From the NCBI GenBank assembly GCA_024860865.1, contig JACRDV010000053.1:1-9002 (forward strand): a DNA stretch of 9,002 bases, in the 5' to 3' direction. Shown piece after piece: positions 2-6,353 of the stretch. The translations under genes and the position numbers were made by a program. Below the pieces are notes generated by a model. The model made no database searches, was not told the origin of the DNA, and saw only the letters and a list, made by a program, of their open reading frames with translations. Each line of letters begins with the position of its first letter. Within the stretch, counting starts at the first letter, position 1. The DNA comes from JACRDV01 sp024860865 [NCBI: Methanobacteriota archaeon]. Lineage in GTDB: Archaea; JACRDV01.

Positions 2-151
2 AACCTTGGAAATTCTTCACTTCTTAGGAATTCAACAGCAGGGATTTGGTTTTTAGCAAAGGCCGATGAACTGGATAAAGAGACCCAGATTCTTAGGTTA
101 AAAGCTGCCGAGGTACAAGAGATTCTCAGAAAGACTTCAGAATATCGCTGA
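2..151 (+). CDS. 3' end of an unidentified protein gene (partial)
   Basis: An open frame enters from the left edge and ends at TGA 149-151, giving about 49 residues. The other two plus-strand frames are closed by stops in this stretch. The end of the product is rich in Lys, Glu, Arg, Ala and Leu and reads as a charged helix (for example AKADELDKETQILRLKAAEV). No catalytic motif or membrane segment is visible, and I do not recognise the family. Base composition around 61-120 is close to half G+C, higher than most of the window and similar to the ATPase gene at 3635-5035. There is no convincing internal start, so the gene probably begins outside the window. It could be a chance open frame, but the codons look used. 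Confidence 0.45.
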   Translation, partial: NLGNSSLLRNSTAGIWFLAKADELDKETQILRLKAAEVQEILRKTSEYR

Positions 152-215
152 GGTTAATCTAACTATTTTCGTTCCATTCTTAGAGACATAAATCTCAGTG
201 TTTTTAAACTGCTAA

Positions 216-226
216 TTTTTTATATT
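216..226 (+). promoter_or_regulatory. Candidate TATA box of the PIG-L deacetylase gene
   Basis: A T/A-rich TATA-like element (TTTTTATATTT) lies about 50 nt upstream of the ATG at 274. A start site 25 nt downstream would leave a leader of about 27 nt. That leader contains a weak AGGG ribosome site at 265-268. This is inferred from spacing and composition only. Confidence 0.35.
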
Positions 227-273
227 TGAGCGCTGTAATGTAGACAGGCAATTTTAGAATTAGCAGGGATATA

Positions 274-882
274 ATGGAAATTATAGTTATTTCGCCCCAT
301 CCAGACGATTGTGTGCTCGGGTGTAGCGGAATTACAGCTCTCCACGCCGAAAAAGGCGATAACGTTCATGTTTTAATCCTATCAAATGGCGAAGGTGGCG
401 GCAATCCTAAAATTCGAGTTAAAGAAGCAAAGGAATCTGCGAAAATTCTAAAGATTAAATCAATCAAATTTTTCGGATTGCCCGATGGAAAAATTTCAGA
501 TGATATTGATACTATTTCATTAATTGAAAAAGAAATAGAAAAAATTAAACCCCAAAGAGTTTATTCAAACTCCCTGCACGATAGGCACCAGGATCATAGG
601 AACACATCTTTAGCATCCCTCTCAGCAGCGCGAGCAGTTCCAGAAATTTTTCTCTACGAAACTCCGAGCACACTTTTTAATTTCTCTCCAACTATTTTTA
701 TTGATATCTCAAAGAGTATTGATTTAAAAATTCAAGCTATTAAAGCTCACAAATCTCAGATTAAAAAAGCGTACACAAAACCAGATGCAATTAGAGGACT
801 CGCTCAATTTCGAGGGCATCAAAGCCGACTAACTTTTGCAGAAGCTTTCGAACTAGGGCATATTATAGTAAAAGAACTTTAG
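274..882 (+). CDS. PIG-L/LmbE-family zinc-dependent N-acetylglucosaminyl deacetylase
   Basis: A 202-residue protein of the PIG-L (LmbE) superfamily, which removes N-acetyl groups from sugar conjugates using a bound metal, usually zinc. The N-terminal strand leads into PHPDD (residues 8-12), the family's metal and catalytic motif. By analogy with MshB, His9 and Asp12 are metal ligands and Asp11 the general base. The third ligand is His108 in HDRHQDH (102-108). The segment SNGEGGGNP (37-45) is the usual glycine-rich loop. Length is typical of stand-alone archaeal members. There is no signal peptide or membrane segment, so it is cytosolic. The ATG is preceded by AGGG at 5 nt. The substrate is unknown: GlcNAc-lipid, GlcNAc-inositol and nucleotide-sugar-derived amides are all possible. 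It stands alone, convergent with the zinc-protein gene at 918-1088, with 35 nt between their stops. Confidence 0.88.
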   Translation: MEIIVISPHPDDCVLGCSGITALHAEKGDNVHVLILSNGEGGGNPKIRVKEAKESAKILKIKSIKFFGLPDGKISDDIDTISLIEKEIEKIKPQRVYSNSLHDRHQDHRNTSLASLSAARAVPEIFLYETPSTLFNFSPTIFIDISKSIDLKIQAIKAHKSQIKKAYTKPDAIRGLAQFRGHQSRLTFAEAFELGHIIVKEL

Positions 883-2068: not shown

Positions 2069-2800
2069 CTAAACTTGCTCAAATTTCACAAATGCCCCAT
2101 TACTAAAAATAGGAACAACATCGGTTAAATTAGCTTTTGAGCAATATTCAATATCTTCAATATTTTTAAAGGATTTTAATCTTTCACCCGTTTCCGAGCT
2201 TTCAATGAAACTCTTAATTTTATTTTGGTCATAATTAGCATAAATAGCGGCAGATTTTGCCCTTTCAGTTAACTGGTTGATTTCAAATCGACTCGCAATT
2301 AAACCCGCTCCAATCCAATCCTCAATTGCAAATTTTCCGATCCTTCCAACTGCCAAAATAGTGACGTTAGTTCGATATTTATTTGCAAGGGTTTTAGCTA
2401 CATTTGCTACTGCATATGTATTGATAAGAGCACCGATTAAAATTTCCTTAGCAAAGGGCTTAATTGCATTTATTGCTCTAGTACCATTTGTAGTGGTTAA
2501 AACTATTGTTTTATTTTTAACATCGCTTTTTGAAAGCTTAGCTGGAGAGTTGTTTAAATCAAAAGTAGGTATTTCTACTCCAAATCTTTCTCCAGCAAGA
2601 ATTGCACCCTCAAATTCTTTAGCAATTGTCTTGGCTTCCTCGATATCGCCAACAGCGACTACTCTTTGGGCTCCATTTGCTAAAGCTGTTATAATAGTTG
2701 AGCTCGTTCTTAAAACATCAACTAAAATGAAAATATTTCGATCAAAAAAAGGTTGTGCTTCAAGATAAGGGATAGCGTCAATAACAATATCAAAGGCCAA
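2069..2800 (-). CDS. comB: 2-phosphosulfolactate phosphatase (coenzyme M biosynthesis)
   Basis: A 243-residue ComB homologue. The enzyme hydrolyses 2-phospho-3-sulfolactate to 3-sulfolactate and phosphate with Mg2+, the second step of coenzyme M biosynthesis from phosphoenolpyruvate. Family landmarks visible in order are VDVLRTSSTIITALANGA (residues 27-44), LAGERFG near residue 68, FDLNNSPAKLS, TTTNGTRA, and the C-terminal GRIGKFAIEDWIGAGLI. Length is normal for the family. The start is TTG at 2798-2800, supported by AGGAG 6 nt upstream (2807-2811); the next Met is far downstream and would remove the first strand. It lies 16 nt after comA and 6 nt before the MNT gene on the same strand. No signal peptide or membrane segment is seen, so it is cytosolic. 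Confidence 0.93.
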   Translation of the reverse strand: MAFDIVIDAIPYLEAQPFFDRNIFILVDVLRTSSTIITALANGAQRVVAVGDIEEAKTIAKEFEGAILAGERFGVEIPTFDLNNSPAKLSKSDVKNKTIVLTTTNGTRAINAIKPFAKEILIGALINTYAVANVAKTLANKYRTNVTILAVGRIGKFAIEDWIGAGLIASRFEINQLTERAKSAAIYANYDQNKIKSFIESSETGERLKSFKNIEDIEYCSKANLTDVVPIFSNGAFVKFEQV

Positions 2801-2816
2801 CTTAAACTCCTATTTA

Positions 2817-3587
2817 CTATTTGTTTAGCACGTCTGCCCTTAAACCTCGGCGAAGGGTTTCAAGTGGAATCACTTCTTCAGGTCTAATGTTTCCTAAGTT
2901 TACATCAGGTCCAAACCTTTTAATTAAAAACACTTGTTGGTTCTTCAATGGGGCTTCAAAAATTAAATCCTTAATGTCAACTTGTTTAACTATTGATATT
3001 ACTCGAGGAAGCACGACCTCTCCATGTTCATTAAAAATACCTGTTGTTCCAGTTTCTCTAGCCTCAAGCGATACTTTTTCCGCTCCTAAATTGAGATATT
3101 CTTTTATTAATCTAATTCGCTCGTCAACTGTAATAGTTTGATCTTTTTCATAGCTTTTTTTTCCCACTTCAGCAAAAACTTTAAACCCAAGGCTTTTTGC
3201 AGTTTTAAGTATTTCGCTTCTTTGCTCCGGTGTTAGATCTATTACGCCTTCAGAAATCTCAAATGCAGTTAATCCAAGTTCTTTTACCTCTGTTAAAAAA
3301 TTCTTAACTTTACCCTGTAAAAGCGCTATTTCAAAGGAAGTTCCACCATTCATCACATAAATTTTATTTTTTCTATAAAGTTCAATTTTTTGTTTGAGTA
3401 AATCTTTTGAAAATAGTTGCCATGTTCCCCAACCAAGTTTTATAACATCGATAAATTCTCCTGCTGTTGAAAGTAAATCTTCGGCGCCACGAATTCCCAA
3501 TCCTTTATCTAGAACTATGGTGAGGCCTTGAGCCCTTGGTTTTGAGTTCCGGTTAGGAACTTGTATATCGCCTAAAATTGTCCTCAT
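2817..3587 (-). CDS. comA: Phosphosulfolactate synthase (coenzyme M biosynthesis)
   Basis: ComA adds sulfite to phosphoenolpyruvate to give (2R)-phospho-3-sulfolactate, the committed step of coenzyme M biosynthesis. It is a TIM-barrel enzyme. Numbered from an upstream ATG at 3599, the landmarks are KPRAQGLTIVLDKGLG (20-35), IKLGWGTW (53-60), NGGTSFEIA (84-92), EISEGVIDL (114-122), AEVGKK (143-148) and SLEARETG (177-184). I prefer the second ATG at 3585-3587 (256 residues). It has GAGGT 5 nt upstream, and a TATA element at 3609-3616 would place transcription start almost exactly there. The ATG at 3599 adds four residues and has no ribosome site. The C-terminus ends GLRADVLNK, where many homologues have GLRGDT. 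It is first in the comA-comB-MNT-HEPN-Trm112 series and follows the ATPase gene by 47 nt. Confidence 0.93.
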   Translation of the reverse strand: MRTILGDIQVPNRNSKPRAQGLTIVLDKGLGIRGAEDLLSTAGEFIDVIKLGWGTWQLFSKDLLKQKIELYRKNKIYVMNGGTSFEIALLQGKVKNFLTEVKELGLTAFEISEGVIDLTPEQRSEILKTAKSLGFKVFAEVGKKSYEKDQTITVDERIRLIKEYLNLGAEKVSLEARETGTTGIFNEHGEVVLPRVISIVKQVDIKDLIFEAPLKNQQVFLIKRFGPDVNLGNIRPEEVIPLETLRRGLRADVLNK

Positions 3588-3608
3588 TTTAAACCTCATT
3601 CAATAAAT

Positions 3609-3634: not shown

Positions 3635-5035
3635 CTAGTTTTTCTTAAGGAGATCTTTAAGTTCTAGGATAACATAGCCTTGCTTGGAAAGTTCTTCTTT
3701 ACCTTGGACCTTCTTGGCGAACAGGCCCAAGTATTCTGTCCGGTTTTCTTTCCTCCATCTAAAGTCTTGAACCTTTCGCTCGAGCATTTGAAGTATCTTT
3801 TTGGCCTCAGCCTCTTTTAGACTGCTCCACTTTACTTCGAAGAACATTGCCGAGGGTTGGGCTTCATCTAGGGCTACACCATCGATTTCTATGTCTCTAA
3901 ACCACCATCTTCCCACACTTTTCGGACGGATGGGCAAAAGGCCCTTTACTGTGAGGTGCCATAGGTTTTCTCTGAAAAGCTGCTCAAAGACTGTTCCAAG
4001 GTATACTTTATAGTCCCGTTGTACTTTCTCTATGATTGGCCCTATGTTCCCTAGCTCTAAGTCGGATTTGTTTGGGAAGAGGTATCGGAACCAGAAGGCC
4101 ATGTAGGGATCGGCTATGCAATGGAGGGCCTTCCGTGGCTTAAGCCTCTCTCCGACTGGGTAGAGACGCTCCACCCAACCAAGTTCTTCCAGCACATTCA
4201 CATATTTTGAAAGGAGGCTTTTTTCAAGACCTGTAGAGTTAGCTATCTCGCCGAAGGATGATGCGCCTAAGGCTACGGCCCTGAGTATGGCTGAGTAGAA
4301 CCTTGGCTCACGAAGCTCCTCCCTAAGCAGAAACTCAGCCTCACCATAGAGGAACTCCCCTTTCCTAAGGAACCTTTCCGATACGTTAGCCCAAAAGGAA
4401 ACGTTGGGGTCGAACTTGAGGAGATACGCTGGAATCCCGCCGAGGCACCCGTAAACCCTGACGAGATCTTCTTCACTGTATTTGGGGAAGAACTCACTGA
4501 GGTATTGGAAACGTAAAGGTATGAGCTTCCATTGCCCAGTCCTTCTGCCGTAGAGAGGACTTCTGTAGCCCAACACCTCTGTCTCCATTATGCCCACGGA
4601 TGAACCGAGGAGAATGAGCATAACTCGGCTGTTTTTAAGCTTCAGGTCCCAGATCTTCTGAAAAATAGACGGTATGGCCTTGTTGCCCTCGATGAGAGCG
4701 GGAAACTCGTCTAGGGCTACAATGATCCTGCCTCCCTTCCACCATTTTAGGAACTCTTCAAAAAGCTCCAGCCAGCCTTTCACCTCGAGCTTTGCGAAGG
4801 ATTCATCTTTAAGCACCTGGGCCATTTTTGCTCGTAACTCGAGAAGTAGGTCCTTTTCAGGTCTCCTATCAGCCAGAAAATATAGAGCGGGCTTTCCCTT
4901 GATGAATCTTGCGACAAGCTCGGTCTTACCGACCCTTCTACGCCCATATATAACTACAAGCTCGGGGCCCGTAGTATTGAATTTTTCCTCTAAGAACTGG
5001 AGCTCTTGATCCCTATTAACGAATAGTTGAATCAT
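3635..5035 (-). CDS. Archaeal ATPase with winged helix and DUF234 PD-(D/E)xK-like C-terminal domain
   Basis: A 466-residue protein of the archaeal ATP-binding family (ATPase_2 plus DUF234). Walker A is GRRRVGKT (31-38). Walker B is RIIVALDEFP (103-112, Asp109-Glu110). A sensor-like strand LILLGSS (140-146) and the GYRSPLYGRRTG segment (156-167) follow. A winged helix-turn-helix spans about 245-293 and the family motif DPYMAFWFRYLFP is at 309-321. The C-terminal domain has RDIEIDGVA (380-388) and FEVKW (399-403), which match the PD-(D/E)xK nuclease core with Asp385, Glu400 and Lys402 intact. The gene is complete. Its biological role is not established for this family; DNA binding or processing is an inference. 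Lines counted within it are 47-57% G+C against 27% in flanking genes, and it favours AAG/GAG/AGG codons, which suggests acquisition by transfer. The ATG at 5035 is preceded by a TATA box and no ribosome site (leaderless). Confidence 0.9.
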   Translation of the reverse strand: MIQLFVNRDQELQFLEEKFNTTGPELVVIYGRRRVGKTELVARFIKGKPALYFLADRRPEKDLLLELRAKMAQVLKDESFAKLEVKGWLELFEEFLKWWKGGRIIVALDEFPALIEGNKAIPSIFQKIWDLKLKNSRVMLILLGSSVGIMETEVLGYRSPLYGRRTGQWKLIPLRFQYLSEFFPKYSEEDLVRVYGCLGGIPAYLLKFDPNVSFWANVSERFLRKGEFLYGEAEFLLREELREPRFYSAILRAVALGASSFGEIANSTGLEKSLLSKYVNVLEELGWVERLYPVGERLKPRKALHCIADPYMAFWFRYLFPNKSDLELGNIGPIIEKVQRDYKVYLGTVFEQLFRENLWHLTVKGLLPIRPKSVGRWWFRDIEIDGVALDEAQPSAMFFEVKWSSLKEAEAKKILQMLERKVQDFRWRKENRTEYLGLFAKKVQGKEELSKQGYVILELKDLLKKN

Positions 5036-5062
5036 GAGTATAATACTCGTAATTCAACTATT
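5022..5062. repeat. 41-bp interrupted palindrome over the ATPase start codon, probable operator
   Basis: The arms are 5022-5041 and 5043-5062, centred on A5042. The outer 11 bp (AATAGTTGAAT / ATTCAACTATT) match perfectly. The inner half-sites (GAGTAT / ATACTC) also match perfectly. Only two of twenty pairs fail, both in the three-base segment that contains the ATPase start codon. It lies between the ATPase TATA box and its first codons, where a bound repressor would block initiation. The same DNA could form a hairpin in RNA. Confidence 0.75.
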
Positions 5063-5066
5063 TAAG
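5059..5066 (-). promoter_or_regulatory. TATA box of the ATPase gene (leaderless transcript likely)
   Basis: On the minus strand CTTAAATA is centred 27 nt before the A of the ATPase ATG at 5035, so transcription would begin at the start codon itself. This agrees with the absence of a Shine-Dalgarno site. The palindrome at 5022-5062 overlaps the downstream edge of this box, which suggests repression by steric block. Confidence 0.5.
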
Positions 5067-5156
5067 CTTAAGGTCCATGTTGACGACAACGATTGATCGG
5101 GATGCGATGCGGCCTCTTTATGTGTTTTTGTGGTTGAAGATCAAAACCTCCAGTTA

Positions 5157-5170
5157 TATTCTTAAGAATA
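5157..5170. repeat. 14-bp perfect palindrome upstream of comD
   Basis: TATTCTTAAGAATA is self-complementary over its full length. It lies 119 nt upstream of the comD ATG in the AT-rich half of the intergenic region. It could be a binding site for a dimeric regulator of comDE, or a chance palindrome in AT-rich DNA. Confidence 0.4.
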
Positions 5171-5275
5171 CTTCATCCTCTGCATTGTCTTTCAATTCCC
5201 TTTTAATGGGATTTACCTTTTACATTCCATTGGAAAGTACAAAAGTTAAAGTCTACATTAAGCGAATTAGCTATA

Positions 5276-5289
5276 GGTATTTGGATACC
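5276..5289 (+). promoter_or_regulatory. Short hairpin directly abutting the comD start codon
   Basis: GGTAT and ATACC (5276-5280 and 5285-5289) form a perfect 5-bp stem with a TTGG loop. The stem ends at the base before the comD ATG. The only ribosome-site candidate, AGGT at 5275-5278, falls within the stem. If transcribed, it could limit or tune initiation. Confidence 0.35.
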
Positions 5290-5790
5290 ATGAAAAAAAG
5301 CACTTTGGCAATCCTTCAGGGATTAAAAAGCGTAGGCATCAACTTTATCGTGAGTTTTCCATGCGTTTTACTAGAAGAGGTTATCAGAGCAATCGATTCA
5401 GAAAGAACTTTTAAGCACGTTCGTGTTACAAGAGAGGAAGAAGGGGTCGGAATTTCTGCAGGAGCCTACTTGGGTGGAAAAAAACCAGCTATATTAATGC
5501 AAAATTCCGGTTTAGGCAATTCAATAAATGCATTTGCTTCTTTGATTAATTTTTATAGAATTCCGTTGCTTCTATTAATAAGTCATAGAGGGGTTTTAGG
5601 TGAAGAAGTAGCAGCTCAAATTCCAATGGGTTTAGCTACGCCAAAGTTGCTCCAGGTATTGGGAATTCCTTTCTTTGAACCCTTTTCAGCTGAAGAAATA
5701 AGTAAAACAATAAAAAAGGCTCAAGCTGTTGCTGAGTCCAATCAAAAACCTTTTGCAATCTTATTAACTAAACCGGTGTTGGCAAAGTGA
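5290..5790 (+). CDS. comD: Sulfopyruvate decarboxylase, alpha subunit (coenzyme M biosynthesis)
   Basis: A 166-residue homologue of ComD, which carries the N-terminal (pyrimidine-binding) half of a thiamine diphosphate enzyme. With ComE it decarboxylates sulfopyruvate to sulfoacetaldehyde. Visible features are KSVGINFIVSFPCVLLEE (13-30) at the N-terminus, VTREEEGVGISAGAYLGGKKP (46-66) with the glutamates expected to activate the cofactor, QNSGLGNSINAFASL (71-85), and SHRG (98-101). Start choice: the ATG at 5290 gives the family's usual length and N-terminus. An in-frame ATG at 5077 would add 71 residues of low-complexity sequence unlike the family. The ribosome site is weak (AGGT 11 nt upstream, within a hairpin). 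comD overlaps comE by 4 nt (GTGA), so the subunits are translationally coupled. Confidence 0.92.
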   Translation: MKKSTLAILQGLKSVGINFIVSFPCVLLEEVIRAIDSERTFKHVRVTREEEGVGISAGAYLGGKKPAILMQNSGLGNSINAFASLINFYRIPLLLLISHRGVLGEEVAAQIPMGLATPKLLQVLGIPFFEPFSAEEISKTIKKAQAVAESNQKPFAILLTKPVLAK

Positions 5791-6353
5791 AAAGATTCGA
5801 TGCAATTAAATCCATTGTTGAAGAATTAACTGATGAACTCGTTGTTTGTAATTTAGGTTATCCATGTCGCGAACTTTTTGCTATAAAAGATTCTCCAACT
5901 CACTTTTATATGCTCGGAAGCATGGGCTTGGCTTCTTCTATTGGATTGGGACTAGCTCTAGCTCTTCCCAAACGCAAAATTATAGTGTTAGATGGAGATG
6001 GGAGCTTATTGATGAATCTAGGCTCGTTTGCCACAATTGCAAATCAAAATCCAAGCAATTTGGTATTAGTTGTTTTAGATAATGAAGCCCATGGTTCAAC
6101 TGGTTTCCAACCTACTGCTACGGGAGGTTTAACTGATCTTGAAAGAGTTGCAAAAGGTGCAGGAATCGCAAATTCAATTACAGTAAAGAATAAGAAAAAC
6201 CTTAAAAATTCATTAAAAAAAGCATTAAGAGACAAACAGATGCATCTAATTGTTGTGAAAATTGAAAAAGGAAATGCTAATGTTCCGCACGTCAATTTAT
6301 CTCCTATTGAGATTAAAAATAGATTCATAAACGAAATAAAAAAATCAAAATAA
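5787..6353 (+). CDS. comE: Sulfopyruvate decarboxylase, beta subunit (coenzyme M biosynthesis)
   Basis: A 188-residue ComE homologue forming the diphosphate-binding half of sulfopyruvate decarboxylase. The thiamine diphosphate motif is intact: GDGS at 70-73 followed by LDNE with Asn99, the GDGx(about 25)N pattern that binds Mg2+ and the diphosphate. LGSMGLASSIGLGLALAL (43-60) is the conserved stretch before it. The start is GTG at 5787-5789, overlapping the comD stop by 4 nt. Separate comD and comE genes contrast with the fused ComDE known in Methanosarcinales. The gene ends 9 nt from the stop of the convergent helical-protein gene at 6363. No signal peptide or membrane helix is seen, so the complex is cytosolic. 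Confidence 0.93.
   Translation: MKRFDAIKSIVEELTDELVVCNLGYPCRELFAIKDSPTHFYMLGSMGLASSIGLGLALALPKRKIIVLDGDGSLLMNLGSFATIANQNPSNLVLVVLDNEAHGSTGFQPTATGGLTDLERVAKGAGIANSITVKNKKNLKNSLKKALRDKQMHLIVVKIEKGNANVPHVNLSPIEIKNRFINEIKKSK

Follow-up and report, generated by a model that had tools for sequence, protein, structure and literature searches.

A nested palindrome across the start codon of an archaeal ATPase-DUF234 gene as the probable operator of that gene

What is the role of a near-perfect palindrome that spans the start codon of a gene? The question is raised by a 9,002-nucleotide stretch of DNA (positions 1 to 9,002 of contig JACRDV010000053.1 from the archaeal assembly GCA_024860865.1; hereafter the window), in which a 41-bp palindrome covers the first codons of a gene for a protein with an ATPase_2 domain, a winged helix-turn-helix (wHTH) and a DUF234 domain. 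From sequence comparisons, we consider it probable that the palindrome is an operator for autorepression, bound by the protein that the gene encodes. An initial annotation of the window had raised autoregulation as an attractive idea. It is now strongly favoured, since the palindrome is conserved, its halves covary and few segments of the protein predict the site as well as its own recognition helix does, while correlation tests between protein and site gave mixed results.

The sequence at 5022-5062 reads AATAGTTGAAT CAT GAGTAT A ATACTC GTA ATTCAACTATT, with the axis at 5042 (Table 1). It is near-perfect, as had been claimed: 18 of the 20 pairs between its 20-bp arms match, the outer 11-bp and inner 6-bp half-sites are perfect, and both unpaired positions fall in two 3-bp blocks, the one holding the start codon (5033-5035) and its mirror image (5049-5051), which confirms that the break lies on the start codon. 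The dyad score of 15.0 is the highest in the window, where the runner-up reaches 9.5, and was matched by 2 of 1,000 dinucleotide-preserving shuffles of the 9-kb sequence. A TATA-like octamer, CTTAAATA, starts 24 nt from the axis. The initial annotation had placed the palindrome just downstream of a TATA box; such a box is indeed present, but it shares 4 bp with the outer half-site.

Homologous genes carry palindromes at the same place. A scan of genome contigs yielded two close homologues, L032 from Brockarchaeota (76% identical) and L033 from Thaumarchaeota (73%), which retain the palindrome with few changes and lie in unrelated flanking DNA with unrelated open reading frames (ORFs). As the homology runs from the TATA box to the stop codon, the travelling unit is the promoter-operator plus the gene. 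For remote homologues we used 152 loci (L031 excluded) from the top of score-ranked lists, many of them from one archaeal family, apparently Thermococcaceae; 146 had a match reaching the conserved arginine, and 157 rows were reduced to 140 unique start regions by removing short and duplicate ones. Their palindromes differ in sequence, even between members inside one archaeal family. The initial annotation had proposed looking for the same palindrome upstream of homologues, with its loss in close ones counting against the idea: the palindrome is kept in both close homologues, and remoter ones have different palindromes in its place. A dyad score of at least 10 was reached at 46 of the 140 homologue starts (the strong cases below) versus 1 of 137 sites lying 200 bp upstream and 1 of 140 intragenic sites, and 83 of the 140 starts exceeded their own shuffles at p ≤ 0.05. 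Among other ORFs of at least 150 aa, 4 of 127 starts scored at least 10, two of these from a related ATPase_2 + MCM_C gene, and none of the 34 starts in the AT-rich subset did.

Dyads were found in M. jannaschii, some haloarchaea and bacteria. Between 100 nt upstream and 25 nt downstream of the start, 13 of 22 plasmid-borne homologues had a dyad at p ≤ 0.05, of which four (L164, L182, L185, L186), located 57-81 nt upstream, may be of another nature. Homologues on bacterial plasmids had dyads in 7 of 9 cases, two being close Cetobacterium relatives. In Cetobacterium there is a palindrome of 48 bp whose 23-bp arms are perfect, and the sites of Mesorhizobium and Rhodothermus extend to the start codon or end one base before it.

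The two halves of the palindrome change together, although one of them is non-coding and the other lies inside codons 2-5. We examined the 65 of 140 homologues that share the window's start-codon offset. When they were thinned to 24 by dyad strength, the axis lying 7 nt before the start codon gave a pairing of 0.59, versus 0.25-0.38 for 21 others. The true halves paired at 0.578 compared to 0.441 for halves re-paired between genes (standard deviation 0.016, maximum 0.496 of 1,000), and codons 2-5 paired with their non-coding partners at 0.614 compared to 0.456 upon re-pairing (maximum 0.530). Because thinning by strength favours symmetry, we repeated the analysis with 50 random thinnings of 22-24 genes each. 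True halves then paired at 0.540-0.581, versus re-paired means of 0.421-0.442, and codons 2-5 at 0.577-0.621 versus 0.436-0.463. In all 50 random thinnings the true halves lay above all 200 re-pairings and the 7-nt axis was the best of 22. Hence, the palindrome dictates in part the first residues of the protein.

The initial annotation had stressed the start codon, and the palindrome does span the ATG, but the axis of most strong cases keeps phase with the TATA box, so that the start codon is not the organizer. Measured from where the best TATA-like octamer begins, the axis lay at 23 or 24 nt in 33 of the 46 strong cases. By mechanical assignment of start codons, this spacing held in 20 of the 23 cases with the start codon 7 nt off the axis and in 8 of 8 with the start codon at 18 nt; in two further cases, with the start codon at 19 nt, a GTG located 7 nt off the axis is in frame as well. 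Since this spacing prevails at both start-codon distances, 7 and 18 nt, the site is tied to the promoter. The usual archaeal spacing from TATA box to transcription start puts the latter near the start codon in the window. We infer that the message is leaderless, which is probably why the palindrome spans the start codon.

By eye, the class of the recognition helix follows the class of the operator. Helices of the form [DE]K[ST][LM][LV]SKY go with AGTTGAA/GAGTAT, HSD[IV]TPY with TGATAAT/ATTATCA (M. jannaschii, with HSDLTPY, fits the TGATAAT class), VTNLPKY with TTAATAAC/GATATTAA, and AKDL[SP]AY with TTCGAATC-like sites. Partial Mantel scans in the first four settings gave p values of 0.006-0.041 for the wHTH block. 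In a nearest-neighbour test, we asked which 15-residue segment of the protein is best at picking out, among proteins below 40, 45 or 50% identity, one whose operator is similar, with and without a dyad threshold (six settings, 444 overlapping segments). The best segment started at 267-272 in five of the six settings, and segment 267-281 ranked 6, 22, 2, 21, 3 and 1 of 444. We regard this as supportive but exploratory evidence that few parts of the protein predict the operator sequence as well as its own recognition helix.

The domain content of the protein suggests what such an operator might control. Its ATPase_2 and DUF234 domains score 94.1 and 95.8 bits (Pfam cut-offs 33.2 and 22.5), and DUF234 holds the sequence EIDGVA...FFEVK, which we take to be the pattern typical of PD-(D/E)XK nucleases; E383-I-D385 and E400-V-K402 are invariant across the window's protein and its two close homologues. 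PADLOC models of PDC-S27 match the protein at 1.4e-43 and 7.6e-25, and also match 7 of 7 further family members checked. In the text of PMC12988326 available to us, PDC-S27 is, like the window's protein, a fusion of an ATPase to a PD-(D/E)XK member, a putative single-gene defence candidate with 3503 archaeal and 4562 bacterial occurrences; most candidates of its sort are described there as lacking validation, and that text mentions neither an operator nor self-regulation. The window's gene is thus a suspected antiviral defence nuclease, a candidate from an unvalidated family. NCBIfam yielded no family, and a scan of viral contigs gave no relative.

In the mechanism that we propose, the encoded AAA+/STAND-type ATPase would use its wHTH to bind the palindrome, probably in the form of a dimer of dimers that occupies four half-sites, namely the outer pair and the inner pair; the suggestion of a tetramer or two dimers made by the initial annotation fits this layout. 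Bound protein would extend from the 3' half of the TATA box across the transcription start to the first codons, and would block TBP, TFB and RNA polymerase such that its own predicted nuclease product stays low. Each lineage of the family would have its own operator spelling, read by its own recognition helix, and release may occur on infection. Binding, repression, the oligomeric state and the release signal are parts of this scheme that we infer, and its plausible purpose is to hold a nuclease gene low until it is needed.

Several results weigh against autorepression by the encoded protein. No dyad beyond the gene's own shuffles at p ≤ 0.05 was found at 57 of the 140 homologue starts, and 13 of the 46 strong cases depart from the spacing of 23-24 nt (8 at 29.5-31.5, 2 at 16 and 3 at 23.5-25). 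Eight haloarchaeal plasmid members (L156-L160, L162-L164) share a common block, GTCATTATCGYARTAATCATTA, before the start codon, with variable last bases, of which only that of L162 is clearly symmetric, the others being conserved but of poor symmetry. In six other Mantel settings, with other sets and another metric, p values ranged from 0.045 to 0.287 for the wHTH block and from 0.029 to 0.244 for the recognition-helix block, and in neither the four nor the six settings was any single segment of the protein significant after correction. An earlier, uncorrected correlation test on three sets was led in two of them by segments 109-116 and 289-296, outside the recognition helix. The sixth nearest-neighbour setting placed the best segment at 304, and that test is exploratory because it was designed after the mixed correlation tests, with segment 267-281 picked after the helix classes had been seen. 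A structure model from three sequences was too poor (predicted local distance difference test score, pLDDT, 42) and was discarded.

Symmetry and TATA phasing by themselves imply merely that some symmetric protein binds, and this could be another regulator of the host for which the palindrome is an operator. We consider this unlikely, because the site moves with its gene between unrelated neighbourhoods, and because its spelling varies between members of one archaeal family and, in the exploratory comparison above, follows the gene's own recognition helix. Moreover, the palindrome was single-copy in the window's genome (1.54 Mb, 160 contigs), with no second copy even at up to 3 mismatches, and a second genome, searched with its own palindrome, likewise held no further copy at up to 3 mismatches.

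The site might instead serve movement or homing, either as a recognition end, as the initial annotation had also suggested, or as a target cut by the DUF234 nuclease domain. The gene does look mobile: its G+C content is 47.7%, compared to 32-38% in 8 other genes measured, and the TATA-palindrome and the stop codon limit the homology in three species. There is also an exchange hotspot, where DNA upstream of member L017 was present in 38 of 41 genomes searched (a family that appears to be Thermococcaceae) and 4 of 11 such stretches (G005, G061, G084, G092) hold ATPase-DUF234 members with different operators, and others hold none. However, none of 142 3' ends had a strong dyad and any operator 9-mer recurred near the stop codon at only 5 of 140 loci, so that the palindrome is not one of a pair of element ends and the earlier alternative of a recognition end is unsupported. 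An intact site adjoins an intact gene, whereas a homing site would be split by its element. At two nearly empty sites, G097 and G076, with flanking matches ~53 and ~90 bp apart, the best dyads scored 6.5 and 7.5, none of them strong, in what are few sites from one hotspot. By eye, distances from the common upstream gene differ, and the TATA phasing would be left unexplained. Taken with these points, a role in movement or homing seems very unlikely. The G080 stretch (L167) has no ATPase-DUF234 gene but carries a palindrome, CTGTGAGGATTATCTTGGGGAGGATAATCTTCACAG, with a dyad score of 12.5 that resembles the operator which the G061 member has at this site and looks like the relic of a gene start.

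Symmetry that is preserved while the sequence changes is also a trait of structured RNA, and the palindrome could thus be kept as a DNA cruciform or as an mRNA hairpin that hides the start codon. We rate this as highly improbable: since the TATA box lies 24 nt from the axis, the transcription start expected for an archaeal promoter would fall downstream of the left arm and leave that arm outside the message, which is why we set the hairpin aside, and half-site spellings recur within helix classes. Finally, a chance palindrome in AT-rich promoter DNA, for which the homologues without a significant dyad might speak, has a negligible probability in view of the shuffle, positional, other-gene and re-pairing controls, the covariation tests refuting it as far as computation can.

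Table 1. Coordinates of the palindrome, its parts and the encoded protein in the window.
Feature	Coordinates	Strand	Basis or remark
Nested palindrome, proposed operator	5022..5062	.	dyad scan, axis 5042
Outer half-site, promoter-proximal, AATAGTTGAAT on gene strand	5052..5062	.	nearly unchanged in L032 and L033
Outer half-site, downstream, ATTCAACTATT on gene strand, codons 2-4 and part of 5	5022..5032	.	
Inner half-site GAGTAT (gene strand)	5043..5048	.	
Inner half-site ATACTC (gene strand)	5036..5041	.	
TATA-like box CTTAAATA	5059..5066	-	24 nt to dyad axis
ATG start codon	5033..5035	-	7 nt to axis; probably at about the transcription start (leaderless message)
ATPase_2-wHTH-DUF234 protein, 466 aa, PADLOC PDC-S27	3635..5035	-	domain and PADLOC searches
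ATPase_2 domain, residues 5-207	4415..5023	-	Pfam
wHTH, MarR_2/IclR-like, residues 249-290	4166..4291	-	Pfam
Putative recognition helix region, residues 267-281	4193..4237	-	assigned by eye from wHTH match
DUF234 domain, residues 315-414, with EIDGVA...FFEVK pattern	3794..4093	-	Pfam

Autoregulation through palindromes is already known. The AbiEi antitoxin, a defence-type protein, reportedly represses its own operon through inverted repeats, as we propose here, and is said to differ in belonging to a toxin-antitoxin system of two genes whose effector is of another kind. CapS/CapK, CapW/BrxR and CapH/CapP repress immune operons, according to the available text of PMC13373217, much like the role suggested for the window's protein. 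CapS, a wHTH protein with one site at its own promoter, as here, binds 'narrow' and 'wide' palindromes via two dimer interfaces, comparable to the inner and outer half-sites, and thus offers a precedent for a defence repressor on nested half-sites. In the same text, the repressor of the CapS, CapW or CapH type is a separate gene, whereas putative effector and putative repressor would here be one polypeptide, and the operator sequence diversifies between members of the ATPase-DUF234 family, unlike in those systems. The mycobacterial IniR joins an SSO1545-like AAA+ ATPase domain to a DNA-binding domain and binds a promoter, as proposed here, but it induces a separate operon and has no nuclease among the three domains named in the accessible part of PMC5760070, in which the terms palindrome and autoregulation do not occur. 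In the open-access texts available to us, with subscription papers and preprints outside the scope, we found no report that these ATPase genes start with palindromes, nor any of a private diversifying operator in a one-gene ATPase-nuclease family across two domains of life.

A broader notion, which we regard as possible but doubtful, is that the ATPase-DUF234 (PDC-S27) family as a whole, archaeal and bacterial members alike, may constitute a one-protein poised defence module, in which a nuclease-ATPase oligomer would occupy, at its own promoter, a private operator that diversifies fast. One and the same release event (the ATPase sensing a phage signal or a DNA state) would free the nuclease and open the promoter, while paralogues in one genome would be kept separate by their own operator spellings. 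The PDC-S27 family is large and its function unproven. A built-in operator would predict the DNA target of each protein, with dozens of natural protein-operator pairs open to binding assays, and suggests how a single-gene nuclease may stay silent. The covarying pairs would also provide a natural data set on changes to the DNA code of a winged helix.

The Walker-type ATPases SSO1545 (2fna) and 2qen share the ATPase_2 domain with the window's protein, 2qen being the only solved relative found by sequence. The hotspot also holds a second ATPase family (L167:1224-2306, L170, L177, L004) with an ATPase_2 domain, a match to an MCM_C-type wHTH and none to DUF234, whose closest structures are 2qen and 2fna. 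Its members have repeats of their own at the start codon, namely tandem palindromes that end there. Three copies share AACTTGCAGGGGTGCAAGT-AACTTGTGGGGGTGCAAGTT, and L004, a more distant member, has a like layout in a different spelling.

In the window, the ATPase gene sits between a ComA gene (2817-3599) and a pair of genes for a thiamine pyrophosphate (TPP) enzyme (Pfam), the latter apparently ComD/ComE and probably sulfopyruvate decarboxylase. The flanking genes, ComA with a 2-phosphosulpholactate phosphatase (2069-3599) on one side and the two-gene TPP enzyme (~5293-6353) on the other, form a coenzyme M-type cluster that is broken by an ATPase gene of differing base composition. By reading of the ORF list, the ORF start at 5077 probably over-extends the TPP-enzyme gene (5077-5292), and a start near 5293 seems more likely. 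In L032, the divergent neighbour (3-545, minus strand) resembles a gene for a TATA-binding protein, as recognised by eye. Further along the window, at 1125-2062 on the minus strand, a HEPN gene and a nucleotidyltransferase gene overlap by 4 bp in a HEPN-MNT-type pair (Pfam), and the nucleotidyltransferase also matches the PADLOC models PDC-S09 and PDC-M05A.
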